From: Herbidospora sakaeratensis
GTDB taxonomy: Bacteria > Actinomycetota > Actinomycetes > Streptosporangiales > Streptosporangiaceae
DNA length: 64,000 nucleotides
Assembly: GCF_001570525.1 (NCBI RefSeq)
Contig: NZ_BBXC01000008.1
Location: 523,841-587,840, forward strand
Direction: 5' to 3'
Part shown: positions 40,377-55,573 of the stretch, one piece after another
Position numbering within the stretch: the first letter of the stretch is position 1
How the letters are laid out: each line of letters opens with the position of its first letter
Made by a program: the position numbers and the translations under genes
The notes under the pieces: generated by a model
What the model was told of the DNA's origin: nothing
Databases searched by the model: none
The model's input: only the letters and a program-made list of their open reading frames with translations

Positions 40377-40408
40377 GGCCGCTCCTTGGGGGGTGAAGGG
40401 CTTCGCGG

Positions 40409-40426
40409 TTGGAGAGCGCTCTCCAA
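40409..40426. promoter_or_regulatory. LacI-family operator of the glucanase gene
   Basis: TTGGAGAGCGCTCTCCAA is a perfect 18-bp palindrome with the central CG typical of LacI-family sites. It lies 33-50 bases upstream of ATG 40376. It begins about 36 bases after the start of a perfect TTGACA on the minus strand, so it should cover the transcription start and act as a repressor site. The repressor gene is not in the window. Confidence 0.8.
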
Positions 40427-40531
40427 ATCAAGAGACTCGCGCGGGCGGCTGACAGGTGTCAAGGCCCCAATCCCCGGCGGGGAAACACCCGCGAAACACC
40501 CGGGAGGGCCGGAAGGGGGCGTCGACGCAGG

Positions 40532-40547
40532 TGGAGAGCGCTCTCCA
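40532..40547. promoter_or_regulatory. Second 16-bp LacI-family operator
   Basis: TGGAGAGCGCTCTCCA repeats the operator core exactly, 122 bases from the glucanase operator (centre to centre) and 224 bases from the NRPS operator. No -35-like TTGAC lies at the right distance on either strand, so it may be an auxiliary site for looping or serve an unrecognised promoter. Confidence 0.7.
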
Positions 40548-40684
40548 TGGAATTGGACCGCCGACCGAAACACCCGCTTTGACCTGCAGTAAGACGCCGC
40601 CTGACGTAGATCGTCTCGGCGCCGGGCTGTCAAGAGGCGGCCCTGAATTCGCGATGAAACTGCAGGCCGTTACCGCGATGTCAT

Positions 40685-40710
40685 GAAACGTAATGAAATT
40701 TCATCGTTTC
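40685..40710. promoter_or_regulatory. 26-base palindrome just upstream of the NRPS promoter
   Basis: ATGAAATTTCAT (40693-40704) is a perfect 12-bp palindrome flanked by GAAACG (40685-40690) and CGTTTC (40705-40710), which also pair, with two extra bases (TA) on the left. It is very AT-rich for this genome and ends 1 base before the -35 element. That is the usual place of an activator site. The binding factor is unknown. Confidence 0.5.
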
Positions 40711-40711
40711 C

Positions 40712-40741
40712 TTGACCCTGCCGAAAGCGCGTCCCTAGCCT
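40712..40741 (+). promoter_or_regulatory. Candidate promoter of the NRPS operon
   Basis: TTGACC (40712-40717) and TAGCCT (40736-40741) are separated by 18 bases, a fair sigma70/HrdB-type promoter. The predicted start near 40748 lies just before the CebR-type operator at 40757. Confidence 0.55.
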
Positions 40742-40756
40742 CGCTGAAGGGCGTAG

Positions 40757-40770
40757 TGGGAGCGCTCCCA
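40757..40770. promoter_or_regulatory. CebR/CelR-type operator of the NRPS operon
   Basis: TGGGAGCGCTCCCA is the exact 14-bp palindrome known as the binding site of the cello-oligosaccharide repressors CebR (Streptomyces) and CelR (Thermobifida). It lies 123-136 bases before the NRPS start codon and just downstream of the predicted transcription start, so a bound repressor would block the operon. It differs from the 16-bp sites nearby by one base pair fewer in each arm. Confidence 0.8.
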
Positions 40771-40892
40771 AATCAATCGGCGGGGGCGCGGATTCGTGCT
40801 GTCCGCGAAGCGGGACGCGGCCGGCCCCGGGCCGATCGCAGCTCGCGCCGCGCATCTGCCCCAGACGGGCCTCGACGAATCCGGAGCATCTG

Positions 40893-43800
40893 TTGACCAG
40901 TCTCTCCCCGGCCAAACAGGCACTTCTCGCTCGCCGGCTCCAGCGCCGGACCGTCTCGGAGACCATCGCGCCACGCTCACCCGAGGTCGTCCCGCCGTTG
41001 TCGCACGCGCAGGAGCGCCTGTGGTTCCTGGAGCACTACCGGGCGGGCACGACGGCGTACACGGTCCCCTTCACGGCCCGCCTCACCGGCGACCTCGACG
41101 CGGCGGTCTTCGCGGCGGCGGTGACGGAGGTGTCACGGCGGCACGAGAGCCTCCGCATGCGTTTCCTCGCCTCCGACGACGGCCTGCCCGAGGTGGTCGT
41201 CGACGCCGAGCCCACCACCGAGTTCTCGCTCGTCGAGGCCGGATCGGAGGAGGCCGCCCGGGAGCTGATGGCCGCCCAGCTGGCCCGCACGTTCGACCTG
41301 TCGGCCGGGGGGCTGCTGCGTGTCCTGCTGATCCGGCTGGCCCCCGGCGACCACGTCCTGCTGATGGCCGCCCACCACGCGGTGACCGACGGCTGGTCGG
41401 GTGAGATCCTGCTGCGCGAGCTGCTCACCCTGCACGCGGGCGGCGCCCTCGACCCGCTGCCGATCCAGTACGGCGACTACGCCCTGTGGGAACGCACCCG
41501 CGACCACACCCGCGACCTCGCCTACTGGCGCGAGCGGCTGACCGGGGTGCCGCCGCTGGAACTGCCGCTCGACTTCCCCCGCCCGGCCGAGCAGACCACC
41601 GCCGGCCGGAGCCGGCGTTTCCGCGTCGATCCCCGGCTCCTGGCCCGCTTCGCCGACCAGGGCGTGACGCCCTACATGGTCATGCTGGCCGCGCTGCAGC
41701 TCACCCTCGGCAGGTGGTCGGGGCAGTCCGACTTCGCGGTCGGCTCGCCGGTGAGCGGACGGCCGCTGCCCGAGCTCGAACCCCTCGCCGGCATGTTCGT
41801 CAACACGCTCGCGATGCGGGCCGACCTGTCGGGCGACCCGACCTTCGGGGAGTTCCTGCTGCGGGTCCGCGACTCGTGCCTGGACGCCTACGCGCACCAG
41901 GAGATGCCGTTCGACAAGCTGGTCGGCGAGCTGAAGGTGGAGCGCGACGTCAGCCGGTCGGCGGTGTTCCAGGTGCTGCTGGCGCTGCAGAACTATCGGG
42001 CGCCCGAGGACAACGGGCTGGCCGTCTCGCCGTTCCACCCCGAGGCCACGGTGAGCCGCTTCGACCTGGCCTTCTACCTCTGGGACGACGACCTCCTGGT
42101 CATCTACAACCCCGACCTGTTCCGGCCCGAGACCGTCGCCCGCCTGACCGACTCGTTGACGACGGTGCTGGGCGCCGCGCCCGAGACCCCGTTGTCGCAG
42201 GTGGCGTGGGTGCCCGACGCCGGCGAGGTGCTGGCCCTCGGCGTCGCGGCCCCGGCCCGGCCGCTGTCCGCGCGGCTGCTGCACGAGCTGCCGTCCGGCG
42301 GCGACGCCCCGGCCGTGGTGTTCGGGGACGACGTGCTGACGTACCGGGAGCTGGACCTGCGCGCCAACCATCTGGCCCACCGGTTGTGCTCCCTGGGGAT
42401 CCGGCCCGGCGACCGGGTGGCCGTCTGCCTGGAGCAGTCGGCCGGGCTGGCCGTCGCGCTGCTGGGCGTGCTCAAGGCGGGCGCGGCCTACGTCCCGCTC
42501 GACCCCGAGCAGCCGGACGACCGGCTCGCCTACCTGATCGGCGATTCGGGCGCGCGGGTGTCGGTCACCGGACGCCCGCTGCCCGGCGGGACCGTCGAAG
42601 TCGGCCTGGAGCCGGGCGAGGCCGACGCGCCGCCCGGCACCGGGGTGACCCCCGACGACCTGGCCTACGTGATCTACACCTCCGGCACCACCGGCCGGCC
42701 CAAGGGCGTGGCGGTGCAGCACCGCGAGGTGCTGACCTACCTCTCCGGGGTGCGGGAGCGCTTCGGCGTCGAGGACGGCAAGGTGTTCGCCCTCCCGCAG
42801 TCGCTCGCCTTCGACTTCGGGGTGACGATCTTCTACCTGTCGCTGATGACCGGCGGCACCCTGCACCTGATCCCGCCGAAGTCGACCGACCCGTGGCCGG
42901 TCCGCCCCGACTACCTGAAGATGACCCCCTCCCATCTGGCGGCCCTCGACGTCGACCCGCCGAAGGAACTGCTCATCCTCGGCGGCGAGGCGTCGACCGT
43001 CGGCTGGGCCTCCGACCTGGCCGCGCACTGCCGGGTGGTGAACCACTACGGCCCCACCGAGGCCACCGTCGGCGTGACCACCTTCGAGGTCGAGCCCGGT
43101 CAGACCGGCCAGGCCACGCTGCCCATCGGCCGGCCGCTGCCGGGGGCGCGGGTCTACGTCCTGGACGAGCACCTGCGGCCCGTCGCGGCCGGGGTCACCG
43201 GCGAGATCTACCTGGGCGGCGACCGGCTCGCCCGCGGCTACCTCGGCAAGCCCGCCCTCACCGCCGAGAAGTTCCTCCCCGACCCCTACGGCCCGCCCGG
43301 CTCCCGCGTCTACCGGACCGGCGACCTGGGCCGGTGGACCCACGACGGGGTGCTGCAGTTCCTCGGCCGCCGCGACCTCCAGGTGAAGATCCGGGGCTAC
43401 CGGGTCGAGCTGAGCGAGGTCGAGACGGTGCTCGCCGAGCATCCCGCCGTCGCGCAGGCGGTGGTGGAGCTGCGCGACCAGCGGCTGGTCGCCTACCTGG
43501 TCGGCGACGAGATCCCGGCCACCGAGGTGCGCGCCTGGGCGAAGGACCGGCTGCCCGACTACATGGTCCCGGCCCGCTGGACGTGGCTCGACGTGCTGCC
43601 GCTCAAGTCGCACGGCAAGGTCGACCGCGCGGCCCTGCCGTCGCCCGACGAGCCGGTCATGACCGGCCTGGTCGCGCCCGAGACGGAGGCCGAGGAGACG
43701 ATCGCCGCGATCTGGGCGGCGGTGCTGGGGCTGGAGCGGGTCGGGGTGACCGACGACTTCTTCGACCTGGGCGGTCACTCGCTGCTGGCCATGCAGGTGG

Positions 43801-46082
43801 TGGCCCGCATGCGCAAGGCCGGGCACGAGGTCACGCTGATGCGATTGTTCTCCCACCCGACCGTGCGCGAGCTGGCCCGCGCGGACGCCGGCTCCGGCGG
43901 CCTGCTGCACCGGCTCACCCCCGCGCGTCCCGTCACGGCCTCGCTCGTCTGCGCGCCCTACGGCGGCGGCAGCGCCGTCGTCTTCAAGCCGCTGGCCGAC
44001 GCGATGCCCGCCGACTGGGCGCTGCACTCGATCGCGGTGCCCGGCAACGAACTGGGCGAGGAGCCACGCCCGACCGACGAGGTCGCCGACCAGGTGACCG
44101 CCGAGATCCTGGCGGGCGTCGAGGGCCGCGTCGTCCTCTACGGCCACTGCGGCGCGGGCACCACCCTGATCGCGGCCATCGCCCGCCGCCTCGAAGCGGC
44201 CGGCCGCCCGGCCGAGGCCGTCTACCTGGGCGGCGTGTTCCCCTTCACCCGGCCCCGGGGCCTGTTCACCCGGTTCGGCGAGTGGCTGGAGGACCACGGC
44301 AGCGACCAGTCGCGCATCAACGCCCTGGTGGCCTCGGGCCTCGACGTGGCCGAGTTCGACCAGGACGAGCTGGAGCTCATCGTCCGCAACCGGCGGCGCG
44401 GCACCCGGGAGGCCGAGCAGTACTTCGCCCGGCTCTTCGAGGAGGGCGGCGAGCCGCTGTCGGCCCCGGTGATCGCGGTGGCCGGGGAACGCGACCCGGT
44501 CATGGAGTTCTACCAGGAGCGCTACCGGGAGTGGCACTGCCTGTCCCGGGTGACGGCCTGCGTGGTGCTCGACGAGGCGGCGCACTACTTCGTGAAGTAC
44601 CGGGCGCGGGAGCTGGCCACCATCGTGACCACCGTCCACGCCGACCTCGACACGGCCGAGGGCCCGGGGTCGTGGTGGGTCGAGGGCGTCTCGCGGACCA
44701 CGCCGGAGAGCCCTCCCGGTCTGCCCCAGTCGGCCGGGCCCGCGCCGAGCCTGCGGCGTTTCCTGGTGCTCGCGGCGGGTCAGCTCGTCTCGATGACGGG
44801 ATCGGCGCTGACCGAGTTCGCCGTCCCGCTCTGGATCTACCTGGAGACGGGCTCGCTGGCGAACTTCGCGCTGTTCTCGGTGCTGGGCCTGCTGCCGGGG
44901 CTGCTCGCCGCCCCGCTCGCGGGGGCGGTGGTCGACCGGTTCAACCGGCGGGCGGTGCTGATGTGCGCCGACATCGCGGCCGGGGGGACCCAGCTCGCGC
45001 TGGGCATCCTGGTCTGGACCGGAACGATACAGATCTGGCATGTCTACCCGTTGCTCGTGACGTTGTCGGTCGCGCTCACCTTCCAGCGGGTCGCGTACGC
45101 CTCGGCGATCCCGCAGCTCGTGCCGAAGCGGTTCCTCGGGCACGCCAACGGGGTGGTCGGCATGGCCAACGGGGTCGCGCAGCTCGTGGTCCCGCTGGTC
45201 GCGGCGGGGCTGCTCGCGGTGATCGGGCTGGGCGGCATCCTGGTCATCGACGTGGTCAGCTACGTGGTCGCGATCGTCGTGCTGGCCGTGATCAGGTTCC
45301 CGCGCACCCTGCCGTGGAAGCGGCGCGAGACCGTGCTGAAGGAGATGGCCGAGGGCTTCCGCTACACCTGGGGCCACCTGGGCATCCGGCGGATGTTGTT
45401 GTTCTTCGCGGTCGTGAACCTGTTCATGTCGCCGCTGTTCCTGCTGGTCTCGCCGCTGGTGCTGAGCTTCGCCGACACCGCCGACGTCGGGCGGGTGGCG
45501 TTCTTCGGCGGGCTCGGGGTGTTCCTGGGCGGCCTGGCCATGACCTTCTGGGGCGGCCCGCGCCGGCTGCGGCTGCGCGGCCAGTTGTTCGCCACGCTCT
45601 CGCTGGCGGCGTTCGCGCTGGTGGTCGGCGTGCGGGAGGACCTGGTCGTGATCGCGGTCGGCGTGTTCGGCATGTTCGCGTCGCTGACCGTGCTGAACGG
45701 CGTCTACAACACGATCATCCAGGTGAAGGTGCCCCAGCGGTTCCACGGCCGGGTCTTCGCGCTCAACCAGCTTGTGGCCTTTTCGACACTCCCGATCGGC
45801 TATGGGCTGATCGCCCCCTACGGAACGGCGCTGTTCGAGCCGTTGATGGCCGCGGACGGCCCGCTGACCAGCACGGTCGGCCTGATCATCGGCACCGGGG
45901 AGGGCCGTGGGATCGCTCTCATGTACGTCCTGTTCGCCCTGGTCATGGCGGCCGCGGTCGCCGTTGGGACGCGGATGCGGCGGTTGTGGAATTTCGATCT
46001 GGAGGTTCCGGACGCCATCCCCGACGATGTCATCGGGTTCGCCGAAATCGGCGCGAAAAGGCAAAGCACGGAGGAAAAGTGA
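40893..46082 (+). CDS. NRPS fused to an exporter: C-A-T-TE-MFS
   Basis: One 1729-residue protein holds a condensation domain (1-~440, HHAVTDG near 161), an adenylation domain (~455-940; YTSGTTGRPKG near 594), a carrier domain (LGGHSL near 960), an alpha/beta-hydrolase thioesterase (~1025-1275) and a complete MFS transporter (~1286-1700). The ten A-domain pocket residues read by hand against GrsA are D-F-T-K-I-G-H-V-G-K, closest to the aspartate code. The TE elbow is GHCGAG, so the nucleophile is Cys1086 instead of Ser. The start is TTG 40893 with GGAG at 40882-40885. It shares a GTGA overlap with the carrier-protein gene. It acts at the membrane if the fusion is not cleaved. Confidence 0.93.
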   Translation: MTSLSPAKQALLARRLQRRTVSETIAPRSPEVVPPLSHAQERLWFLEHYRAGTTAYTVPFTARLTGDLDAAVFAAAVTEVSRRHESLRMRFLASDDGLPEVVVDAEPTTEFSLVEAGSEEAARELMAAQLARTFDLSAGGLLRVLLIRLAPGDHVLLMAAHHAVTDGWSGEILLRELLTLHAGGALDPLPIQYGDYALWERTRDHTRDLAYWRERLTGVPPLELPLDFPRPAEQTTAGRSRRFRVDPRLLARFADQGVTPYMVMLAALQLTLGRWSGQSDFAVGSPVSGRPLPELEPLAGMFVNTLAMRADLSGDPTFGEFLLRVRDSCLDAYAHQEMPFDKLVGELKVERDVSRSAVFQVLLALQNYRAPEDNGLAVSPFHPEATVSRFDLAFYLWDDDLLVIYNPDLFRPETVARLTDSLTTVLGAAPETPLSQVAWVPDAGEVLALGVAAPARPLSARLLHELPSGGDAPAVVFGDDVLTYRELDLRANHLAHRLCSLGIRPGDRVAVCLEQSAGLAVALLGVLKAGAAYVPLDPEQPDDRLAYLIGDSGARVSVTGRPLPGGTVEVGLEPGEADAPPGTGVTPDDLAYVIYTSGTTGRPKGVAVQHREVLTYLSGVRERFGVEDGKVFALPQSLAFDFGVTIFYLSLMTGGTLHLIPPKSTDPWPVRPDYLKMTPSHLAALDVDPPKELLILGGEASTVGWASDLAAHCRVVNHYGPTEATVGVTTFEVEPGQTGQATLPIGRPLPGARVYVLDEHLRPVAAGVTGEIYLGGDRLARGYLGKPALTAEKFLPDPYGPPGSRVYRTGDLGRWTHDGVLQFLGRRDLQVKIRGYRVELSEVETVLAEHPAVAQAVVELRDQRLVAYLVGDEIPATEVRAWAKDRLPDYMVPARWTWLDVLPLKSHGKVDRAALPSPDEPVMTGLVAPETEAEETIAAIWAAVLGLERVGVTDDFFDLGGHSLLAMQVVARMRKAGHEVTLMRLFSHPTVRELARADAGSGGLLHRLTPARPVTASLVCAPYGGGSAVVFKPLADAMPADWALHSIAVPGNELGEEPRPTDEVADQVTAEILAGVEGRVVLYGHCGAGTTLIAAIARRLEAAGRPAEAVYLGGVFPFTRPRGLFTRFGEWLEDHGSDQSRINALVASGLDVAEFDQDELELIVRNRRRGTREAEQYFARLFEEGGEPLSAPVIAVAGERDPVMEFYQERYREWHCLSRVTACVVLDEAAHYFVKYRARELATIVTTVHADLDTAEGPGSWWVEGVSRTTPESPPGLPQSAGPAPSLRRFLVLAAGQLVSMTGSALTEFAVPLWIYLETGSLANFALFSVLGLLPGLLAAPLAGAVVDRFNRRAVLMCADIAAGGTQLALGILVWTGTIQIWHVYPLLVTLSVALTFQRVAYASAIPQLVPKRFLGHANGVVGMANGVAQLVVPLVAAGLLAVIGLGGILVIDVVSYVVAIVVLAVIRFPRTLPWKRRETVLKEMAEGFRYTWGHLGIRRMLLFFAVVNLFMSPLFLLVSPLVLSFADTADVGRVAFFGGLGVFLGGLAMTFWGGPRRLRLRGQLFATLSLAAFALVVGVREDLVVIAVGVFGMFASLTVLNGVYNTIIQVKVPQRFHGRVFALNQLVAFSTLPIGYGLIAPYGTALFEPLMAADGPLTSTVGLIIGTGEGRGIALMYVLFALVMAAAVAVGTRMRRLWNFDLEVPDAIPDDVIGFAEIGAKRQSTEEK

Positions 46083-46399
46083 ACGTAGAGCGGGTCATGC
46101 GGCTCTGGAGCGAAATCCTCGGCGTTCCGGTGACGTCACCGGACGACGACTTCTTCGATCTCGGCGGTCAGTCGCTCTCGATGGTGCAGTTCCTGGCCCG
46201 GGTGGAGGGCGAGTTCGGCGTGGAGTTGCCGATCGAGGTGCTGTTCGCGGGCGACCTGACCGCGTCCGGGGCGGCACGGGCCATCCAGGACGTGCTCGAC
46301 GAGGAGGGCGACGACGTCGACGCGCTGCTCGCCGAGGTCGACGCCCTGCCGGCGGGCGAGATCAAGGCGCTCCTGGGAGACCGCACGTGGCACGAGTGA
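46079..46399 (+). CDS. Free-standing peptidyl carrier protein
   Basis: The 106-residue protein is a discrete carrier domain: DDDFFDLGGQSLSMVQF contains the Ser that takes the phosphopantetheine arm. An acidic tail follows (VLDEEGDDVDALLAEVD). GTG 46079 overlaps the stop of the NRPS-MFS gene (GTGA), so the two are translated together. It may hold an amino acid in trans during tailoring, glycosylation or hand-over between the two modules. No separate A domain for it is present, so its loading enzyme is one of the two NRPS A domains or a distant one. Confidence 0.9.
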   Translation: MNVERVMRLWSEILGVPVTSPDDDFFDLGGQSLSMVQFLARVEGEFGVELPIEVLFAGDLTASGAARAIQDVLDEEGDDVDALLAEVDALPAGEIKALLGDRTWHE

Positions 46400-47625
46400 T
46401 CATGTCCACGCACGGCAGCCATGGTGACGTGCTGCCGTTCGTGGCCCTGGGCCGGGCGCTGCGCGAGCGTGGTCACGAGGTCGAGCTGCTCACCCACGGC
46501 CCCTTCCGGGACCTGGCCGAGCGGGCCGGCCTGGAGTTCACCGCGATCGACACGAAGGAGGCGTACGAGGCGAACCTGGCGGACACTCCCCCGCTGCTGG
46601 GCGCCGGCCTCCGGCGGTGGCGCGACTACTACGACGCCAACGGCCTGTTCGAGCAGATCGCCTTCGAGACCCGGCACACGATGGAACGATACGTTCCCGG
46701 CGAGACGATCCTGGTGGGGCGGCACACCACGGCCATCTCCACGCTGTTCGCGGCCGAGGCGCTCGACGCCCCGGCGGCCTGGGTGGCGGTGACGCCGATC
46801 CAGTACATGTCCGAGCGCGGCGTCGCGCACACCTACGCCCGGACCATGGCCGACCGCCTCGACGCCGTCCGGGAGGTCCACGGGCTGCCGCCCGTCCGCG
46901 ACTGGGCGGCGTGGTTCGCCTCGGCCACCCTCGACGTCGCGCTGTGGCCCGCGTGGTTCGACCAGGCGGGCACCCCCGCCCCCAGCCGGGTGCGGCTGAC
47001 CGGCGCGCCGCTCGGCGACGCGGGCGGCGACCACGAACTCCCGCCGGAGGCCGAGGAACTGCTCGACCAGGACGCCGTCCTGGTCACCGGCGGGACCGGC
47101 CGGATGTTGCACCAGCGGTTCTACGAGGTCGCCGTCGAGGCCTGCCGGGCCGTCGGGCGGCCGGCGCTGCTGGCCGTACGGCACCGCGATCTGGTGCCCG
47201 GGACGCTGCCCGACGGCATGCGCTGGTTCCCCGGCCTGCCGTTCGACCGGGTCGTCCCGCGGGTGGGGGCGATCCTGCACCACGGCGGCATCGGCACCCT
47301 GATCAGGGCGGCCGCGTCGGGCACCCCGCAGGTCGTGCTCGCCCACGGGTTCGACCGGGCGGAGAACGGCGCCCGCGTCGCGGCGGCCGGGCTCGGGTCG
47401 TGGCTGCCCGAGCAGCGGTGGTCGCCCGAGGAGGCGGCGGCGCTGCTGAAGACCGCGCTGACCGGGCCGCGTGTCCGGGTGCCCGCCGACGGCGGGCTCG
47501 GCGCGGCGGCCGAGGCGATCGAAGGGCTGGCCGGACGCCCGGCCCCCTACTCGGCCAGACATCTACTCACCCGGGAGGAGCGTCTGACGCTCGCCCGCCG
47601 ACTGCGTTCAGGAGAGACGGCATGA
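46387..47625 (+). CDS. GT1-family (MGT-type) glycosyltransferase
   Basis: The 412-residue protein begins MARVIMSTHGSHGDVLPFVALGRAL, the standard N-terminus of macrolide/antibiotic GT1 enzymes. The C-terminal nucleotide-sugar site reads HHGGIGTLIRAAASGTPQVV, then FDRAENGARV. It should move a sugar from UDP- or dTDP-sugar to a small acceptor in the cytoplasm. GTG 46387 follows GGGAGA and overlaps the carrier gene by 13 bases; the stop overlaps the next start as ATGA. Its place inside the NRPS operon says that the peptide, or a pathway intermediate, is glycosylated, perhaps for self-protection. Confidence 0.92.
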   Translation: MARVIMSTHGSHGDVLPFVALGRALRERGHEVELLTHGPFRDLAERAGLEFTAIDTKEAYEANLADTPPLLGAGLRRWRDYYDANGLFEQIAFETRHTMERYVPGETILVGRHTTAISTLFAAEALDAPAAWVAVTPIQYMSERGVAHTYARTMADRLDAVREVHGLPPVRDWAAWFASATLDVALWPAWFDQAGTPAPSRVRLTGAPLGDAGGDHELPPEAEELLDQDAVLVTGGTGRMLHQRFYEVAVEACRAVGRPALLAVRHRDLVPGTLPDGMRWFPGLPFDRVVPRVGAILHHGGIGTLIRAAASGTPQVVLAHGFDRAENGARVAAAGLGSWLPEQRWSPEEAAALLKTALTGPRVRVPADGGLGAAAEAIEGLAGRPAPYSARHLLTREERLTLARRLRSGETA

Positions 47626-50600
47626 CCCCGGCTCAGTTACGCGCCTGGTTCCTCCAGCAGTTCGACCCCGAGGACGCCGCCTTCAACCTGCACCGGGTCA
47701 GGCTGCTGACCGGGCCGCTCGACCCGGCCGCGCTCGAGAAGGCGGTGACGGCGCTGGCCCGGCGGCACGAGACGCTCCGGACCCGGTTCCCCGCCGTCGA
47801 CGGGCGGCCGGTGCTGGTCGTCGAACCGGCCGAGCCGGTCGAGGTCGAGTGGTTGCGGGCGTCGTCGGCCGAGGAGGCGGAGGCGCTCGTCGCCGCACGC
47901 ACCAACCGGCCCTTCGACCTGGTCGGCGACCTGCCGTTCCGGGTGTCGGTGGTCGGGCTCGGCCCCGAGAGCCACGTGCTGGTCGTGGTGGTCCACCACA
48001 TCATCTGCGACGGCTGGTCGCTGGACGTCCTCATGGACGACCTGGCGGTCTTCTACGGCGGCGGCGAGCCCGAGCCGCTGCAGATCACCGCCCGGGAACA
48101 CGCCGAGCAGACGCCGGAGATCGACCCGAAGGAGCTGGCGTACTGGCGCGAGCGCCTGGCCGACCCGCCGACCCTGGAGCTGCCGGCCGACCGGCCCCGC
48201 CCGGCCGAACGGGTCGGGCGCGGCGACGAGACGGCCTTCCGCATCCCGGCGTCGCTGGTCTCGCGGCTCTCCGAGGTCGCCCGCGGCTCGCGCTGCACGC
48301 TGTTCGCGCTGCTGCTGGCGGCCTACCAGGTGCTGCTGTCGCGGCACTCCGGCCAGGACGACGTGACCGTCGGCGTGCCCGACGGCGGGCGCGACACCGA
48401 GGAGACGCACGCCCTGGTGGCGGGCCTGTCGGGGATGCTGGTGCTGCGCGGCGACCTGTCGGGCGACCCGCCGTTCCAGAAGTTCCTGCGCGGCACGATG
48501 GCCTCCCTGCTGGGGGCGCTGTCGCGGCGGCGGGTGCCGTTCGAGCGGCTCGTCGAGGAGCTCGACATCGGCCGCGACCTCAGCGTCACGCCGTTCTACC
48601 AGACCACGCTCACCCTGCACCCGGGCGAGCTGGAGCGCGAGCAGCACTTCTCCGGGCTGACGGCGACCCCCTTCCCGCACGGCTGGAAGTGGGTGCGCTG
48701 CGACGTCGCGGTCGACGTCTTCTGGGCCGGGGACGACAGCGGCGACCTGGTGACCGTGGTCCGCTACGACACCGACCTGTTCGACGAGCCGACCGTCACG
48801 GCCCTGTTCGAACGGTTCCGGGTGCTGCTGCGCGGCATCGCCGACGACCCTGCGCTGCCGATCTCGCGGCTGCCCCTCATGACCGACGACGAGCGCGACC
48901 GGCTCGTCACCACCTGGAACGCCACCGGCCGGCCGGTCCCCGCGCCGCTGCCCCGGCTGTTCGCCGAGCAGGCGGCCCGCACCCCCGACGCCATCGCCTT
49001 CTCCGACGGCGAGCACGTGCTGACCTACGCCGAACTCGATCAGGCCGCCGGCCGGATCGCGGGGCGGCTCGGCGACCGGCGGGGCTCGGTCGTGGCGGTG
49101 TGCGTCGACCGGTCGGTGCGGGTGCTGCCCGCGCTGCTGGGCGTGATGCGGTCGGGGGCGGCGTACCTGCCGATCGATCCCGACAACCCCCCGGCCCGCA
49201 TCCAGTACATGCTGGAGGACTCCGGCGCGGCGCTGGTGCTGGCCGACGAGGGGCCCGCGGAGCGCCTCCCGGCCGACGTCAAGGTCGTCACGGTCTCCGA
49301 GGCCCTGGCGGCCGACCCGTCCGACCGGTTCCCGCCGGGGCCCGGCGACCACGCGTACACCCTCTACACCTCGGGCTCCACCGGGCGGCCCAAGGGGGTG
49401 GTGATCCGGCACTCGGCGCTGGCGAACTTCCTGGCCGGGATGGCCGACCTGCTCGGGTCGGACCCCGGGCAGGTCTGGCTGGTGCTCTCGTCGGTGTCGT
49501 TCGACATCTCGGCGCTGGAGCTCTACCTGCCGCTGGTCGGCGGGGGCCGGGCCGTCATCGCCGGGCGCGACGTCGCGGTCGACGGCGCGGCGCAGATCAA
49601 GCTGATCGAGGACGCCGGGGTCACCCACATCCAGTCGACGCCGTCGGGCTGGCGGGTATTGATCGAGGCCGGGTTCGCCGATCCGGAGATCACCGGCCTG
49701 GTCGGCGGCGAGGCGCTGCCCGAGGAGCTGTCGCGCGAGCTGCGGCCGAGGCTCGGCCGCCTGGTCAACGTGTACGGCCCCACCGAGACCACCATCTGGT
49801 CGACGACCTGGGAGGTGCCGCCCGGCGGCGGGGAGCCCCGGATCGGGCGGCCGATCGCCAACACCACCTGCTACGTCGCCGACCGCGCGGGCGGCGTCGC
49901 GCCGACGTTCGTCGCGGGCGAGCTGCTGATCGGCGGGGCCGGGCTGGCCGACGGCTACCACGGCCGCCCGGAGCTGACCGCCGAGCGGTTCGTCGAGTTC
50001 GCGGGCGAGCGGGTCTACCGGACCGGCGACCGGGCCCGGTGGGGCTTCGACGGGAACCTGGAGTTCCTCGGCCGGATGGACAACCAGGTCAAGGTCCGCG
50101 GGTTCCGGGTGGAGCCGGGCGAGGTCGAGGCGGCGATCCTCACCTGCCCGGGGGTCGACCAGGCGGCGGTGACGGCGCGGGGCGACATCCTCGTCGGCTA
50201 CATCGTCGGCGACGCCGACCTCGGCGACCTGCGCGACCACCTGGAGAAGATCCTTCCGGCGTACATGATGCCGGCGCTCTGGACCCGCCTGGGGTCGATG
50301 CCGATGACCATCAGCGGCAAGGTCGACCGCAAGGCGCTGCCCGATCCGGTGGCCGAGAGCGGCGCGGAGTTCGTCGAGCCGCGCACCGACGCCGAACGCC
50401 TGGTGGCCGACATCTGGCAGGAGGTCCTCGGCCTCGACCGGATCGGCGCGCTCGACGACTTCTTCGCCGTCGGCGGCCACTCCCTGATCGCGGTACGGGT
50501 GGCGGCCCGCATCCGCGCGATCATCGACCTCGACGTGCCGATCAGGTATCTGTTCCTCCGCCGGACGGTCGAGGAGCTGGCCAGGACCATCGAGGACCTG

Positions 50601-50657
50601 CTGGCCGAGGAGTTCGACGAGCTGACCGACGAGGAGGCGGCGCGGCTGGTGGATTGA
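47622..50657 (+). CDS. NRPS module C-A-T
   Basis: The 1011-residue protein has a condensation domain (1-~430, HHIICDG at ~125-131), an adenylation domain (~445-915, YTSGSTGRPKG near 582) and a carrier domain (VGGHSL near 953). It has no thioesterase. The A-domain pocket residues read by hand are D-I-L-Q-L-G-V-I-W-K, one change from the published glycine code. ATG 47622 overlaps the glycosyltransferase stop (ATGA). Because the other module ends in a TE, this one probably acts first, with its C domain accepting an acyl or aminoacyl donor. The C-terminus ends in an acidic helix that may dock to the partner. The stop TGA lies within the TTGACA of the next promoter. Confidence 0.93.
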   Translation: MTPAQLRAWFLQQFDPEDAAFNLHRVRLLTGPLDPAALEKAVTALARRHETLRTRFPAVDGRPVLVVEPAEPVEVEWLRASSAEEAEALVAARTNRPFDLVGDLPFRVSVVGLGPESHVLVVVVHHIICDGWSLDVLMDDLAVFYGGGEPEPLQITAREHAEQTPEIDPKELAYWRERLADPPTLELPADRPRPAERVGRGDETAFRIPASLVSRLSEVARGSRCTLFALLLAAYQVLLSRHSGQDDVTVGVPDGGRDTEETHALVAGLSGMLVLRGDLSGDPPFQKFLRGTMASLLGALSRRRVPFERLVEELDIGRDLSVTPFYQTTLTLHPGELEREQHFSGLTATPFPHGWKWVRCDVAVDVFWAGDDSGDLVTVVRYDTDLFDEPTVTALFERFRVLLRGIADDPALPISRLPLMTDDERDRLVTTWNATGRPVPAPLPRLFAEQAARTPDAIAFSDGEHVLTYAELDQAAGRIAGRLGDRRGSVVAVCVDRSVRVLPALLGVMRSGAAYLPIDPDNPPARIQYMLEDSGAALVLADEGPAERLPADVKVVTVSEALAADPSDRFPPGPGDHAYTLYTSGSTGRPKGVVIRHSALANFLAGMADLLGSDPGQVWLVLSSVSFDISALELYLPLVGGGRAVIAGRDVAVDGAAQIKLIEDAGVTHIQSTPSGWRVLIEAGFADPEITGLVGGEALPEELSRELRPRLGRLVNVYGPTETTIWSTTWEVPPGGGEPRIGRPIANTTCYVADRAGGVAPTFVAGELLIGGAGLADGYHGRPELTAERFVEFAGERVYRTGDRARWGFDGNLEFLGRMDNQVKVRGFRVEPGEVEAAILTCPGVDQAAVTARGDILVGYIVGDADLGDLRDHLEKILPAYMMPALWTRLGSMPMTISGKVDRKALPDPVAESGAEFVEPRTDAERLVADIWQEVLGLDRIGALDDFFAVGGHSLIAVRVAARIRAIIDLDVPIRYLFLRRTVEELARTIEDLLAEEFDELTDEEAARLVD

Positions 50658-50698
50658 CAGGGCCCGTCCCGGATCCCTTCAATGGAGAGCGCTCTCCA
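50654..50698 (+). promoter_or_regulatory. Promoter and LacI-family operator of the second GH3 gene
   Basis: TTGACA (50654-50659) overlaps the NRPS stop codon; TTCAAT (50678-50683) follows after 18 bases. The operator TGGAGAGCGCTCTCCA starts on the last base of the -10 (50683-50698), so repressor binding would exclude RNA polymerase. The gene can therefore be transcribed both from the NRPS operon and by itself. Confidence 0.7.
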
Positions 50699-50722
50699 AC
50701 CCACTCAGACGCGGGGGGATCT

Positions 50723-53134
50723 GTGGACTACGTCCGGCTGTTGTCCGGGTCGTCGGTATGGCGCACCGCTTCGGAGCCTCTCCTGGGGCTGCCCGAACTC
50801 GTCATGTCCGACGGCCCGGTCGGGGTGCGCGGCCCCGGCTGGGACGAGCGGCGCACCTCGCTCGTCCTGCCCTCCCCCACCGCGCTGGCGGCGACCTGGG
50901 ACGTCGGCCTCGTGCGCGACCTCGGGGCCCTGCTGGGCGCCGAGGCCCGCCGCAAGGGGGTCGACGTCCTGCTGGCCCCCAACCTCAACCTGCACCGCTC
51001 CCCGCTCGGGGGCCGCCACTTCGAGTGCTTCTCCGAGGACCCGCTGCTGACCGGGCTGGCCGGGGCCGCCTACATCGCCGGCGTGCAGTCGCGCGGGGTC
51101 GCGGCGACGGCCAAGCACTACGTGGGCAACGAGGCCGAGACCGAGCGCATGACCTACGACTCGCTCATCGCCGCCCGCGTGCTGCGGGAGGTCTACCTCG
51201 CGCCGTTCGAGGCGGCGGTGGCGGCCGGGGTGTGGGTGGTGATGTCGGCGTACAACCAGGTCAACGGCGCTCCCATGGCGGAGAGCCCGCTGCTGCGCGA
51301 CCCGCTGAAGGCCGAGTGGGGCTTCGACGGGGTGGTGGTCTCCGACTGGGGCGGCGTCCGGTCGACGGTCGCCTCGGCCCTGTCGGGCCAGGACCTGGCG
51401 ATGCCGGGGCCGAACGACTTCTGGGGCGACCCGCTGCGCGCGGCCGTCGACGAGGGAACGGTTCCCGAGGAGGTCGTGCACGACAAGGTCGCCCGCCTGC
51501 GGCGGCTGGCCACGCGGGTCCGCGTCTTGCCCGAGGCGGCGACCGGGCCGGGATCAGACGCCGGACGCGACGCGCCCTTCCCGGCGGCCCTGCCCGCGAT
51601 GACGCTGGCCGAGCGGGTGCAGCTCGCCCGGAACGGTCGGCCGGCGCCGGAGATATCCGGATCGGAGCGGGCCGCCGACGGGCCTGCGGGCGATCCCGCC
51701 GAACTCGCGCTGCTCCGGCGGGCGGTGGCCGACTCCTGTGTGCTGCTGAAGAACGACGACGGGGTGCTGCCGCTGGGCACACCCCGCATCGCGGTCATCG
51801 GCGCGCACGCGGCGCGAACCCGGATCCAGGGCGGCGGGAGCGGCGGCGTCTACCCCTCGGAAGTGGTGTCGATCCTCGACGGGCTGCGCGAGGTCACGCC
51901 CGGCCTGACCTATGCGCCCGGGGTCGACCTCCAGGCCGGGCCGACGCCCGTCGACCGCGTGTGGGTGCGCATGCTCGGCGACGACGGCGAGGAGTTGTTC
52001 GCCGAGGACCGGCGGACCGGCTGGTTGCCCGAGCCGTCGGTGGTCGAGGGCACCAGGACCGTCGAGGTCAGCTCCTTCCTGCGTCCGGAAATTTCAGGAC
52101 ACTGGCGGTTGTCGATGGCCGGGTGGGGGCGGCTCACCCTGAGCGTCGACGGGCGGCCGGTCCTCGACACGCACGTCCCGTGCGACAGCGACGACCCCGC
52201 CACCGTCCACCTGAAACCGCCGTTCCGGCAGGCCGTCGTCTGGCTGGAGGAGGGCGTCGAGGTGCTCGTCACCGGCACCCGGGCGATCGAGCCGCACACC
52301 GGCCGGGCGTGCGTGCTGGCCGCCGACCCGCCGCGCCCCGACGACGACGCGGCGATCCAGGCCGCGGTCGACGCGGCGCGGACCGCCGACGTCGCGATCG
52401 TCGTCGTCGGCACCACCGAGGAGATCGAGAGCGAGGCGCACGACCGGACCGGCCTCGGCCTCCCCGGCCGCCAGGACGACCTCGTCAAGGCCGTCGCCGC
52501 CGCCGCGACGACCGTCGTCGTGGTCAACTCGGGCGGGCCGGTCGCGATGCCGTGGCGCGACGAGGTCGACGCCCTGCTGCTGTGCTGGTTCCCGGGGCAG
52601 CAGGGCGGGCACGGCGTCGCCGACGTCCTGTCGGGACGCCGCGAACCGGGCGGGCGGCTGCCGACGACCTGGAGCGACGTCCCGCTGGTGGAGGCCGCGC
52701 CGGCGCACGGGCAGGTGATCTACGCCGAGGGGCTGAACGTCGGCCATCGCGGCTGGCTGACCGCCGACCGGTCGCCCGCCTACTGGTTCGGCCACGGGCT
52801 CGGCTACACGACGTGGTCCTACGAGGACCTCACGCCGACCGGCGACGGGGTCCGGGTCAGGGTGCGGAACACCGGCGAGCGGCCCGGCCGGGAGGTCGTG
52901 CAGGTCTACCTGTCGAAACCGGGGTCGGGCCGGCCGCCGCGCTGGCTGGCCGGGTTCGCCGTCGTGCGGGCCGATCCGGGCGAGGCCGTCGAGGTGGCCG
53001 TGGCGCTGCCCAGGAGGGCCTTCCAGCACTGGGAGGCGGGCGGGTGGCGTACCGAGGACGGGGAGTTCGTCGTGCACGCCGGGCGTTCGGTGGTCGACCT
53101 GCGGCTCAAATGCGTTGCGTCGCCATCGCCGTGA
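50723..53134 (+). CDS. Glycoside hydrolase family 3, cytoplasmic
   Basis: The 803-residue protein has the same layout as the GH3 at 1507-3798: barrel with KHYVGNEAETER and VVSDWGG (nucleophile Asp208), sandwich domain with a PA14-like insertion, the acid/base region ESEAHDR, and a C-terminal fibronectin-III-like domain. There is no signal peptide. GTG 50723 is preceded by GGGGGG; no earlier start fits. It has its own LacI-operated promoter, so it probably hydrolyses imported oligosaccharides, and could also remove sugars from the NRPS product. An extra Ala/Gly-rich stretch (~275-325) is absent from the paralogue. Confidence 0.9.
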   Translation: MDYVRLLSGSSVWRTASEPLLGLPELVMSDGPVGVRGPGWDERRTSLVLPSPTALAATWDVGLVRDLGALLGAEARRKGVDVLLAPNLNLHRSPLGGRHFECFSEDPLLTGLAGAAYIAGVQSRGVAATAKHYVGNEAETERMTYDSLIAARVLREVYLAPFEAAVAAGVWVVMSAYNQVNGAPMAESPLLRDPLKAEWGFDGVVVSDWGGVRSTVASALSGQDLAMPGPNDFWGDPLRAAVDEGTVPEEVVHDKVARLRRLATRVRVLPEAATGPGSDAGRDAPFPAALPAMTLAERVQLARNGRPAPEISGSERAADGPAGDPAELALLRRAVADSCVLLKNDDGVLPLGTPRIAVIGAHAARTRIQGGGSGGVYPSEVVSILDGLREVTPGLTYAPGVDLQAGPTPVDRVWVRMLGDDGEELFAEDRRTGWLPEPSVVEGTRTVEVSSFLRPEISGHWRLSMAGWGRLTLSVDGRPVLDTHVPCDSDDPATVHLKPPFRQAVVWLEEGVEVLVTGTRAIEPHTGRACVLAADPPRPDDDAAIQAAVDAARTADVAIVVVGTTEEIESEAHDRTGLGLPGRQDDLVKAVAAAATTVVVVNSGGPVAMPWRDEVDALLLCWFPGQQGGHGVADVLSGRREPGGRLPTTWSDVPLVEAAPAHGQVIYAEGLNVGHRGWLTADRSPAYWFGHGLGYTTWSYEDLTPTGDGVRVRVRNTGERPGREVVQVYLSKPGSGRPPRWLAGFAVVRADPGEAVEVAVALPRRAFQHWEAGGWRTEDGEFVVHAGRSVVDLRLKCVASPSP

Positions 53135-53160
53135 CCGCTATCAATGGGGGCCGGACGAAA

Positions 53161-53202
53161 GGAGGAATCGCTATGTATGGCAGCGTCACGCCCGATTCCT
53201 CC
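53161..53202 (+). promoter_or_regulatory. RNA hairpin that masks a strong ribosome binding site
   Basis: GGAGGAATCG (53161-53170) and CGATTCCTCC (53193-53202) are a perfect 10-bp inverted repeat with a 22-base loop. The left arm contains the Shine-Dalgarno sequence of the mini-ORF at 53173, so folding would block its translation. It may equally be a terminator of the GH3 gene. Confidence 0.55.
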
Positions 53203-53220
53203 CGACAGGGCGAGGAGTGA
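53173..53220 (+). CDS. Possible 15-residue leader peptide
   Basis: ATG 53173 follows AAAGGAGGAA, the best Shine-Dalgarno sequence I found in the window, and opens a frame of 15 codons (MYGSVTPDSSRQGEE) ending 27 bases before the acetyltransferase start. The combination of strong SD, short frame and overlapping hairpin suggests a leader that controls the next gene. There is no Trp/His-type codon run to indicate a classical amino acid attenuator. It could be chance. Confidence 0.4.
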   Translation: MYGSVTPDSSRQGEE

Positions 53221-53247
53221 TCGGGCGACCTCTCACAAAGGAAGCCC

Positions 53248-54135
53248 ATGTTGGAACTCCGGCCCCTGAAGGGCCGTCACGAACTCGACCTCTTCCGCTG
53301 TTTCCCCTCGTCGCTCAACGGCGAACTGGAAGCCGACCTGGAGGCGGGCCGCCGCCGCCTCGGCTGGTTGTGGGTGGCGCTCCGCGACGGCGAGCCCGTC
53401 GCCCGCGCCGCCTGGTGGGGGCGCGACGCCGCCGAAGCCCCGCTGCTCATGGACGTCTTCGACCTCGCCACCCCGGAAGACGGCCGGGCCCTGCTCGACG
53501 CCGCCCTGCGCCACGTGGTCACCGGGACCCCGCCGCAGTTCCTGCGGTTCGTCCCGCCCGACTGGCGCGACCACGACACGACCTGGCTCGACGTCCTGCG
53601 GGAGGCGGGCGCGAAACCGCTCGTGGAGCGCCTGCGCCTGGAGTGGCGTCCGGGCACGCCCATCGCCGTCACGAACGTCGAGTTCCGCGAGCCCGCAGGC
53701 CGCGCGGAACTGGTCGGCCTGATGACCCGGGTGACCGAGGGCAGCCTCGACGTCCACACCCGAGCCGAGCTGGCCCGGATGACCCCCCGGGAACAGGCCG
53801 AGAGCCAGTACGAGCAGGAGCTGGCCCTCTACCGGTCGCCCCGTGAGTGGTGGCGGGTCGCGGTCGTCGGCGGCGAGCCCGCCGGTTTCGTCATCCCGGC
53901 CAGGAACGCCTACAACCCGATCATCGCCTACATCGGCGTCGTCCCGGCCCACCGGGGGAAGGGGCTCGTCGGCGAACTGCTCGCCGAGGGCACCCGGATC
54001 CTGGCGGGAAACGGCGTTCCCAGGATCCGCGCCAGCACCGACGTCACCAACGTGCCGATGGCCCGTGCCTTCGCCCGCGCGGGCTACGTCACCATCGAGC
54101 ACCAGGTCGACCTGGTCTGGGAGCAGCCTGTGTGA
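53248..54135 (+). CDS. GNAT-family N-acetyltransferase
   Basis: The 295-residue protein has a C-terminal GNAT domain with acetyl-CoA motif A, YIGVVPAHRGKGLVGELL (~230-247), followed by STDVTNVPMARAFARAGY. The first ~140 residues look like a degenerate second GNAT half, as in mycothiol-synthase-like double GNATs. ATG 53248 follows AAAGGAAG. The acceptor is unknown; it could be a small amine or an antibiotic. It lies between two operator-controlled genes but has no palindrome of its own. Confidence 0.88.
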   Translation: MLELRPLKGRHELDLFRCFPSSLNGELEADLEAGRRRLGWLWVALRDGEPVARAAWWGRDAAEAPLLMDVFDLATPEDGRALLDAALRHVVTGTPPQFLRFVPPDWRDHDTTWLDVLREAGAKPLVERLRLEWRPGTPIAVTNVEFREPAGRAELVGLMTRVTEGSLDVHTRAELARMTPREQAESQYEQELALYRSPREWWRVAVVGGEPAGFVIPARNAYNPIIAYIGVVPAHRGKGLVGELLAEGTRILAGNGVPRIRASTDVTNVPMARAFARAGYVTIEHQVDLVWEQPV

Positions 54136-54157
54136 ACTGCGTGTTTCCAACACGGTA

Positions 54158-54207
54158 TTGACAAGGTGAGATGACACGGCCCACTCTCCTTTGGAGAGCG
54201 CTCTCCA
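54158..54207 (+). promoter_or_regulatory. Promoter and LacI-family operator of the DUF1996 gene
   Basis: TTGACA (54158-54163) with a weak -10 CACTCT (54182-54187) is followed by TGGAGAGCGCTCTCCA at 54192-54207. The operator ends 28 bases before the GTG start. The -35 to operator distance (34 bases) matches that of the glucanase site. Confidence 0.65.
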
Positions 54208-54235: not shown

Positions 54236-55573
54236 GTGCATCCACGAATACGCCTAAGCCTGATCGTCGCCACCATCGTGGCGACGATCACGGCCGGGCT
54301 GGCCGTCATCGCGCCCGCGATGGCCGCCGACGCCCTCATCTCCCAGAACCGGCCGGCCACCGCCTCGTCGAACGAGGGCGACGGCTACGCCGCCGGCGCC
54401 GCGTTCGACGGCAACACCGGCACCCGCTGGGCCAGCGCCTTCAGCGACCCCCAGTGGATCCAGGTCGACCTGGGCGGCAACGCCACGATCTCCCAGGTGG
54501 TCCTCCAGTGGGAGGGCGCCTACGGGAAGTCGTTCAAGATCCAGACCTCCGCCAACGCGGGCGGGCCGTACACGGACGTCTACACCACCACGACCGGCGC
54601 GGGCGGCACGCAGACGCTGAACGTCACCGGCTCGGGGCGCTACGTCCGCCTCTACGGCACCCAGCGCGGCACCGGCTATGGCTACTCGATCTGGGAGTTC
54701 AAGATCTACGGCACGGGCGGCTCCGGCCAGCAGCCGGTCCCGAGCCCGACGTTCACCGACCCGGTGACCCACCGCGAGTTCCAGGCCAACTGCTCGCTCA
54801 CCCAGCACCGCCCGGACGACCCCATCGTCTACCCGAACCTGCCGGGCGCGTCTCACATGCACACGTTCGTCGGCAACACCACGACGAACGCGTCCAGCAC
54901 CTCGGCGTCGCTGCTCAACGGCTCGACGTCGTGCACCAACCCGCATGACAAGTCGGCCTACTGGTTCCCCAGCTTCTACAAGGGCGACCAGCTGATCGCC
55001 CCGACCGGCCACCAGGTCATCTACTACAAGTCCGGCATCCACGAGTACTGGCGCGTGGTGCCCTTCCCGCAGGGCCTGCGCTTCGTCGTCGGCAGCCCGA
55101 CCGCCACGCTCGCCGAGTTCCGCGACTCCCCCGGCCGGGTCGAGGGCTTCGAGTGCGGCAACCTGTCCTTCCAGTGGGACATCCCGGCCAACTGCCCGGC
55201 GGGCAGCCAGGTCAACGTGCGTTACCAGGCCCCGAGCTGCTGGGACGGGGTGAACCTCGACAGCGCCAACCACAAGAGCCACATGGCCTACCCGGTCGGC
55301 GGCTACTGCCCGTCGTCCCACCCGGTGGCGGTGCCGATGCTCGAATTCAAGATCGCTTTCCCGGCGAGCGGAGACCTGTCGAACGCCAGGTTGTCGAGTG
55401 GCCGCGGCTACTCGTGGCACTACGACTTCTTCAACGCCTGGGACAACCCGGCGATCCTGGCCGCGCTGGTCCGCCACTGCATCAACGGCGGCCTCCAGTG
55501 CAACCCGCGCGGCTACGACCTCTACAAACCCCACCGAGGGGCGGCGCTGACGGAGAACTTCGAACTTCCGTGA
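54236..55573 (+). CDS. Secreted discoidin-DUF1996 protein
   Basis: The 445-residue protein has a signal peptide (~1-32, APAMAA), an F5/8-type C (CBM32-like) domain (~36-160) almost identical in wording to those of the glucanase at 36981-40376 (for example YGKSFKIQTS, RYVRLYGTQRGTGYGYS), and a C-terminal DUF1996 domain (~175-430) with ASHMHTFVGN, HKSHMAYP and YSWHYDFFNAW. DUF1996 also occurs in fungal secreted WSC proteins, and its biochemical activity is not known; the conserved His residues suggest metal or glycan binding. GTG 54236 follows GAGGAG. The shared operator places it in the glucan-utilisation regulon. Confidence 0.88.
   Translation: MHPRIRLSLIVATIVATITAGLAVIAPAMAADALISQNRPATASSNEGDGYAAGAAFDGNTGTRWASAFSDPQWIQVDLGGNATISQVVLQWEGAYGKSFKIQTSANAGGPYTDVYTTTTGAGGTQTLNVTGSGRYVRLYGTQRGTGYGYSIWEFKIYGTGGSGQQPVPSPTFTDPVTHREFQANCSLTQHRPDDPIVYPNLPGASHMHTFVGNTTTNASSTSASLLNGSTSCTNPHDKSAYWFPSFYKGDQLIAPTGHQVIYYKSGIHEYWRVVPFPQGLRFVVGSPTATLAEFRDSPGRVEGFECGNLSFQWDIPANCPAGSQVNVRYQAPSCWDGVNLDSANHKSHMAYPVGGYCPSSHPVAVPMLEFKIAFPASGDLSNARLSSGRGYSWHYDFFNAWDNPAILAALVRHCINGGLQCNPRGYDLYKPHRGAALTENFELP

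Follow-up and report, generated by a model that had tools for sequence, protein, structure and literature searches.

Two of the described systems that come closest to the locus considered here concern cellulose use. One is the CelR cellulase regulon known from Thermobifida fusca and from further actinobacteria, in which the same kind of operator precedes the same classes of target genes (main text of Anderson 2012, PMC3377646). The other is the thaxtomin system of Streptomyces scabiei, in which a nonribosomal peptide synthetase (NRPS) gene cluster is linked to a LacI repressor of cellulose utilisation that has TGGGAGCGCTCCCA as its box, as described in PMC5332605. We considered that a comparable arrangement might exist in Herbidospora sakaeratensis, in a stretch of 64,000 nucleotides (hereafter the window; positions 523841-587840 of contig C8 in a genome of 8,595,700 bases and 35 contigs) that carries an operon with two NRPS genes, NRPS1 and NRPS2, among genes for an endo-1,3-beta-glucanase, a GH3 enzyme and a DUF1996 protein (Table 1). 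Our analysis suggests that two carbohydrate regulons quite probably overlap at this single locus: the NRPS operon would be under CebR/CelR, and the hydrolases around it under a second LacI regulator.

The 8-mer GAGCGCTC occurs exactly five times in the window, all within positions 40414-54203. The preliminary description of this DNA had seen five palindromes with this common core ahead of the glucanase gene, the NRPS operon, the GH3 gene and the DUF1996 gene, and both points hold; the extended palindromes are perfect. Because the bare 8-mer is expected by chance at a mean of 4.67 copies in the window, its count is no evidence in itself and was rejected as such; the evidence lies in the extended palindromes. 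These are two distinct operators: box A, TGGGAGCGCTCCCA, found once, ahead of the NRPS operon, and box B, the exact 16-mer TGGAGAGCGCTCTCCA, found at the other four sites, with each half-site differing between the two boxes at two bases. A scan of the whole genome found 16 exact copies of box A, every one outside called genes, and 4 of box B, all in the window and within 13.8 kb; neither palindrome is scattered by the hundreds. When one mismatch was allowed, box A had 19 copies versus 3 for its control, and with up to two mismatches box B had 11 copies versus 2 for the reversed control.

What lies next to the copies of box A elsewhere in the genome? Genes around them were called with our own codon-usage script, and part of these neighbours were scanned with Pfam. 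The Pfam matches comprise a GH48+CBM2 protein, two GH9 proteins, three GH6 proteins (each of whose genes runs into a contig end), a CBM2 protein, a sugar-binding protein, an SBP_bac_5 protein, an aldose epimerase, a nitroreductase and two NRPS operons, that of the window and a paralogue on contig C7. The other neighbours are LacI genes, an MscL-like gene (by eye) and one protein without a Pfam match. Two of the three one-mismatch sites are at GH5 genes. On contig C7, genes for a sugar-binding protein (Pfam), two permease-like proteins and a GH1-like protein (by eye) are followed by the LacI gene C7:616721, whose product matches PDB 5ysz at 1e-124 (next best match, 1e-46) and has AGVGRGTVSRVINGS of the DNA-binding domain in common with it. 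The PDB lists 5ysz as 'Transcriptional regulator, LacI family'; we take it to be CelR of T. fusca. Both the box and the operon layout agree with what is described of CelR and CebR in PMC3377646, PMC5332605 and PMC4898821. Judged by its sequence, box A is identical with the operator published for CebR/CelR, and the NRPS operon would on the same grounds belong to the cellulase regulon of this repressor type: the operator lies in its promoter region, the same box stands at cellulase and cello-oligosaccharide genes, and a CelR-type LacI gene shares an operon with a sugar ABC transporter and a GH1 gene. The preliminary description, which treated the sites as one regulon of LacI/CebR type, is borne out for the NRPS box, with its 16 exact copies and cellulase regulon, and not for the other four, which are box B. 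As for the LacI genes themselves, we located the CelR-like C7:616721 and a gene linked to box B, C7:1016788. None of the 42 LacI matches in the genome (150 of the 179 candidates were scored) lies in the window, and a LacI regulator encoded there was rejected on this ground.

To the box, the regulon membership read from it and the presence of a CelR-like regulator, conservation can be added. Among the best 80 of 243 matches to NRPS1, the nearest named loci are from Herbidospora, and we compared the glucanase/NRPS intergenic region of seven Herbidospora genomes. Box A and the two copies of box B in this region, B1 and B2, are almost completely invariant (Table 1), as opposed to 284 of 470 columns in the rest of the region. 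Counted from the start codon of NRPS1, box A occupies -136 to -123, and B1 and B2 begin at -483 and -361. A 22-base sequence between B1 and B2, GGGCGGCTGACAGGTGTCAAGG (40443-40464), is likewise invariant in the seven genomes and contains a possible -35 hexamer of the glucanase gene on the minus strand. Might box A serve the divergent gene, or be a relic, with the NRPS operon controlled otherwise, for example by the large LuxR-type regulator encoded at 55704-58142? That regulator, downstream of the operon, is kept in six named Herbidospora loci. The divergent gene, however, varies (a glucanase gene in Herbidospora, a gene for an E1 dehydrogenase subunit in locus L084, a glycosyltransferase gene on contig C7), whereas NRPS1 or its operon is constant and all 14 positions of box A are unchanged, and we regard this explanation as highly improbable.

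The NRPS operon on contig C7 (L057; C7:606107-611539) is 39.5% identical, has the same C-A-T-TE-MFS layout and carries an exact box A, which is kept in seven of seven Herbidospora genomes; it lies approximately 4 kb from the CelR-like gene C7:616721. It also adjoins E1/E2-dehydrogenase-like genes (by eye), a GH1 gene and an aldose epimerase gene, and in the intergenic region of this operon (L244) the sequence AGAGAGCGCTTTCTC, an imperfect palindrome that resembles box B, is invariant on the glycosyltransferase side. For a broader comparison, genome contigs were searched for homologues of NRPS1, and the best 80 of the 243 matches gave 76 distinct loci: 52 (L074-L125) align to NRPS1 past the thioesterase (TE) domain, and the remaining 24 (L126-L149) are more distantly related NRPSs. 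With box A called at one mismatch or fewer and not more than 650 bp ahead of the first gene of the operon, it was found in 24 of the 52 loci, or in 26 of 54 when both copies of our own genome are included. These 24 loci belong to Herbidospora (six), Acrocarpospora (one), Microbispora (eight), Microtetraspora (one), Nonomuraea (three), Planobispora (two), Streptosporangium (one), another member of the Streptosporangiaceae (one) and Actinacidiphila, of the Streptomycetaceae (one). Exact box A has 34 copies in the 1.29 Mb of DNA of the 52 loci, versus 0 for each of 40 palindromes with permuted half-sites, and 0 exact copies were found in the 24 more distant loci. A quick tree of NRPS1 with 53 rows places 22 of the rows with box A in two clades, of 14 and 8 rows, and the Acrocarpospora NRPS is the next nearest to that of the window. 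The tree labels refer to the NRPS1 start, by which L103 and L124 have no box A, although they have one by the operon start; L118 was left out, and L108 (labelled as having box A by hand, which the operon-start count confirmed) was entered with the wrong NRPS gene, so that its position and that of our C7 paralogue (own_C7), both on long branches, were not relied on.

Does the CelR-like gene travel with these NRPS genes? A CelR-like gene within the NRPS locus was found in one of the 52 loci (L108), where it shares 91% identity with its counterpart in the window genome; proximity to the NRPS is therefore not the rule, and we rejected it as such. At L108, from Microbispora corallina, the NRPS cluster, A boxes and the CelR-like gene stand within a single 27-kb locus. 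Among the loci without box A, five (L089, L092, L113, L114 and L118) have in common a perfect palindrome, TCTTTCCGGAAAGA, which lies 231-250 bp upstream of where the operon was called to begin and points to a possible different regulator.

For box B, we observed its distribution and the co-occurrence of its copies. The exact 16-mer was found in 10 of 60 genomes, our own included, versus 0 of 60 for the reversed control. Six of the seven Herbidospora genomes have four exact copies and one has three, on one contig and within approximately 14 kb; three genomes of other genera have one copy each. In genomes of three other genera, B boxes stand at GH3 genes and at genes for CBM32 or DUF1996 proteins. 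The 14-base core GGAGAGCGCTCTCC has two copies in this genome beyond the four in the window. One, at C7:149186, precedes paralogues of the GH16 and DUF1996 proteins, and the other lies 56 bp before the helix-turn-helix of the LacI gene C7:1016788. Orthologues of this LacI at E <= 1e-90 were found at 27 loci in 24 of the 120 genomes drawn from the family; the exact core is present in the examined flank of 26 of them, within approximately 120 bp upstream of the helix-turn-helix in 22, and the orthologue adjoins a GH3 gene at 10 of the 27, with GH3 proteins 54-59% identical to that of the window over the available part. These data suggest that box B marks a LacI regulon different from that of box A and that its repressor is most likely the apparently autoregulated LacI C7:1016788, unlinked to the window. 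A third group of related palindromes was noted at C9:228-233 kb (L071), where five copies with the core GAGAGCGCTCTC surround a GH1-like gene (by eye), a LacI gene, transporter-like genes and a GH16-CBM6 gene.

The preliminary description had joined all four promoters in one carbohydrate regulon. If a single LacI bound all five palindromes, the NRPS operon and the glucanase, GH3 and DUF1996 genes would switch together; all the sites do have the core GAGCGCTC, and B1 and B2 are also upstream of the NRPS operon. We nevertheless rejected a single regulon for the five sites, because the half-sites differ by two bases each and the helix-turn-helix motifs of the two LacI proteins differ (GRGTVSRV in the CelR-like LacI, SRATVSRV in the B-linked one); we consider it very unlikely. 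The position of the boxes also argues against it: in the seven Herbidospora genomes, box A is at the NRPS promoter and two B boxes are on the glucanase side, and Acrocarpospora (L104) and the other non-Herbidospora loci with box A have no B core at two or fewer mismatches upstream of NRPS1. The one-regulon claim was therefore abandoned: the glucanase, GH3 and DUF1996 genes have a different palindrome and a different, unlinked LacI. Both inputs might instead act on the NRPS operon, with box A as the main switch and B1 and B2 as an additional lock, so that the operon would respond in AND fashion to cellulose and beta-1,3-glucan together. This would fit the fact that in each of the seven Herbidospora B1 and B2 lie approximately 210-350 bp farther upstream than box A, but these boxes are better placed for the divergent glucanase gene, and Acrocarpospora does without a B box upstream of its NRPS, so that we find such a double lock doubtful.

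We return to two regulons that overlap at one locus, and several observations weigh against this interpretation. Three further NRPS paralogues in the genome have no box A at one mismatch or fewer; they are a useful internal control, and at one of them a two-mismatch copy lies inside the neighbouring NRPS gene. Of the 52 related loci, 28 showed no box A ahead of their operon; among these, L107, L112 and L122 cannot be judged, as their operons reach the edge of the compared DNA. With so many related loci and paralogues lacking the box, a tie to CebR does not hold for the entire NRPS family. The LacI genes C19:165706, C9:318933 and C8:513526 also adjoin A boxes, and the repressor that acts at the NRPS operon might be one of theirs. 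The TTGAC(A/C)-type promoters proposed earlier fared unevenly: such hexamers are near the sites of all four genes, and the possible NRPS promoter has 23 of its 30 columns invariant in the seven Herbidospora (in one of them the first hexamer has lost a base), but under strict sigma-70 criteria 0 promoters were detected in the three regions scanned, that of the NRPS operon included, so that the promoter claim is weak. Finally, the rotihibin NRPS proteins of S. scabies are described as responding to cellobiose without cebR (PMC8552735), which implies that sugar response and CebR can be uncoupled.

How might the NRPS operon be switched? A CelR-type LacI, most likely the product of C7:616721, would sit on TGGGAGCGCTCCCA ahead of the operon and let go upon the uptake of cello-oligosaccharides, with cellobiose as the presumed inducer. 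A small peptide of the Gly/Asp type, possibly glycosylated, would then be produced and exported while cellulose is being degraded. The glucanase, GH3 and DUF1996 genes would belong to the second LacI regulon, with the core GGAGAGCGCTCTCC, whose regulator would most likely bind there and answer to beta-1,3-gluco-oligosaccharides, a ligand suggested by the enzymes. Because the NRPS operon has the same switch as the cellulose-digesting enzymes, the peptide is probably made mainly during the breakdown of plant-type cell walls. The conserved operator also says when its product should be sought, namely, on cello-oligosaccharides or in cells without the CelR-like repressor. We speculate, as a rather unlikely extension, that a Streptosporangiaceae family of NRPS clusters with a Cys-TE and a fused exporter is partly run by the cellulase regulon and in Herbidospora is nested in a beta-1,3-glucan regulon, and that its peptide is released as a sugar-gated weapon or signal where cellulose and beta-1,3-glucan co-occur, for example in the walls of oomycetes or in plant tissue rich in callose.

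Substrates were read by eye with the A-domain code scheme, which gave an Asp-like code for NRPS1 and a Gly-like code for NRPS2. The same residues, asp and gly, are predicted in Table 2 of PMC4599437. For many NRPS clusters of rare actinomycetes no product is known, and the abstract of that paper says so for Herbidospora. The NRPS1 family is a C-A-T-TE-MFS fusion, and Cys replaces Ser (GHC) in the TE of 53 of its 54 members, all but L108 having been read. The beta-lactone of obafluorin is formed by a TE whose catalytic residue is Cys, as described in PMC6668435, although the Cys alone would not demonstrate a beta-lactone product here.

The features of the locus are collected in Table 1. The ends of the genes from NRPS1 to NRPS2 overlap, forming a four-gene operon (40893-50657). 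Residues 307-575 of the glucanase match PDB 3dgt, a GH16-like endo-1,3-beta-glucanase, at 5e-83, and residues 594-910 match the GH158 structure 9oro at 2e-28; the N-terminus resembles a signal peptide by eye. The GH3 protein is closest to PDB 7pjj, a beta-glucosidase. On the minus strand at 59173-61511, a PqqD+transglutaminase-like gene adjoins an asparagine-synthase-like gene, a pair that is also typical of lasso peptide clusters; a quick regular-expression search found no lasso-peptide precursor near 59-63 kb.

Table 1. Genes, operators and a possible promoter at the NRPS locus (window positions; aa, amino acids)
Feature	Position	Strand	Remarks
ROK protein	29555-31030		
Endo-1,3-beta-glucanase protein, 1131 aa	36981-40376	-	Three CBM32-type (Pfam F5_F8_type_C), GH16-like and GH158-like domains
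Box B1, TGGAGAGCGCTCTCCA	40410-40425	.	Putative operator at minus-strand glucanase gene; 16/16 columns invariant in 7 Herbidospora
Box B2, TGGAGAGCGCTCTCCA	40532-40547	.	Putative second B operator, glucanase/NRPS intergenic region; 15/16 columns invariant in 7 Herbidospora
Possible NRPS promoter, TTGACC-18 nt-TAGCCT	40712-40741	+	Ends 15 bp before box A; weak consensus match
Box A, TGGGAGCGCTCCCA	40757-40770	.	Predicted CebR/CelR-type operator of NRPS operon; exact match; 14/14 columns invariant in 7 Herbidospora
NRPS1, 1729 aa	40893-46082	+	C-A(Asp-like)-T-TE(Cys)-MFS; nrps-5 of Komaki 2015
Carrier-protein-like gene, free-standing, 106 aa	46079-46399	+	Gene call, named by eye; 52% identity to C7-cluster partner
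GT28/EryCIII-like glycosyltransferase, 409 aa	46396-47625	+	49% identity to C7-cluster glycosyltransferase
NRPS2, 1011 aa	47622-50657	+	C-A(Gly-like)-T
Box B3, TGGAGAGCGCTCTCCA	50683-50698	.	Putative operator of GH3 gene
GH3 beta-glucosidase-like enzyme	50723-53134	+	No signal peptide evident by eye
GNAT acetyltransferase-like protein	53248-54135	+	Pfam
Box B4, TGGAGAGCGCTCTCCA	54192-54207	.	Putative operator of DUF1996 gene
CBM32-DUF1996 protein, apparently secreted	54278-55573	+	Start uncertain; upstream start possible
LuxR-type ATPase regulator, large	55704-58142		Downstream of NRPS operon; found in six named Herbidospora loci
ROK protein	61886-63043		

How does this locus compare with what has been described? 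The window NRPSs match nrps-5 of H. sakaeratensis NBRC 102641, given in Table 2 of PMC4599437 as a 1729-aa C/A(asp)/T-TE protein and a 1011-aa C/A(gly)/T protein, in their lengths, their order and the two genes that separate them, and are taken to be this cluster; the main text of that paper makes no mention of regulation, cellobiose, promoter or sugar. The CelR regulon as presented in PMC3377646 likewise places a CelR-like gene with an ABC transporter and a beta-glucosidase gene. Its main text, supplementary tables aside, does not contain the word 'nonribosomal' and names no NRPS promoter in the regulon description, and it mentions that in Actinosynnema mirum a CelR site lies within the coding region of a polyketide synthase, which might connect CelR with secondary metabolism. 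The same text describes a GGAGAGCGCTCTCC palindrome, which is box B, in Streptosporangium roseum (Sros_3721-3725) at genes for a LacI, two CBM32 proteins and a GH3 protein. As there, the palindrome in Herbidospora stands at GH3 and CBM32 genes and ahead of the LacI gene; unlike there, the LacI gene is not next to its targets, lying elsewhere in the genome, and the GH3 and CBM32 genes flank an NRPS operon. Since this regulon was already predicted in 2012 (PMC3377646), box B is not new, and the unlinked repressor of Herbidospora is an addition. No report of the present link was found among the papers listed in searches on the box itself, on CebR with NRPSs or secondary metabolites, and on Herbidospora clusters, subscription papers aside.

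The thaxtomin NRPSs use Trp and Phe as substrates, and TxtR is an activator of the AraC type. Here, the substrates differ, the A domains being Asp-like and Gly-like, and no AraC-type match was found among the Pfam-scanned proteins at 28.5-63 kb, which do not include every small open reading frame. As described in PMC5332605, the thaxtomin boxes are imperfect, lie at -899 (txtA), -786 (txtR) and +1507 (txtB), and CebR works alongside TxtR, whereas the box of the Herbidospora operon is perfect, lies at -136 to -123 and is part of a link that recurs over several genera. This would suggest that the thaxtomin arrangement is a recurring coupling of polysaccharide breakdown to peptide production and no peculiarity of a single Streptomyces lineage associated with plants. 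Control of an NRPS by CebR itself has its precedent in thaxtomin; the apparent novelty lies in a box that is perfect, close to the promoter and conserved in part of an NRPS family that is still uncharacterised.

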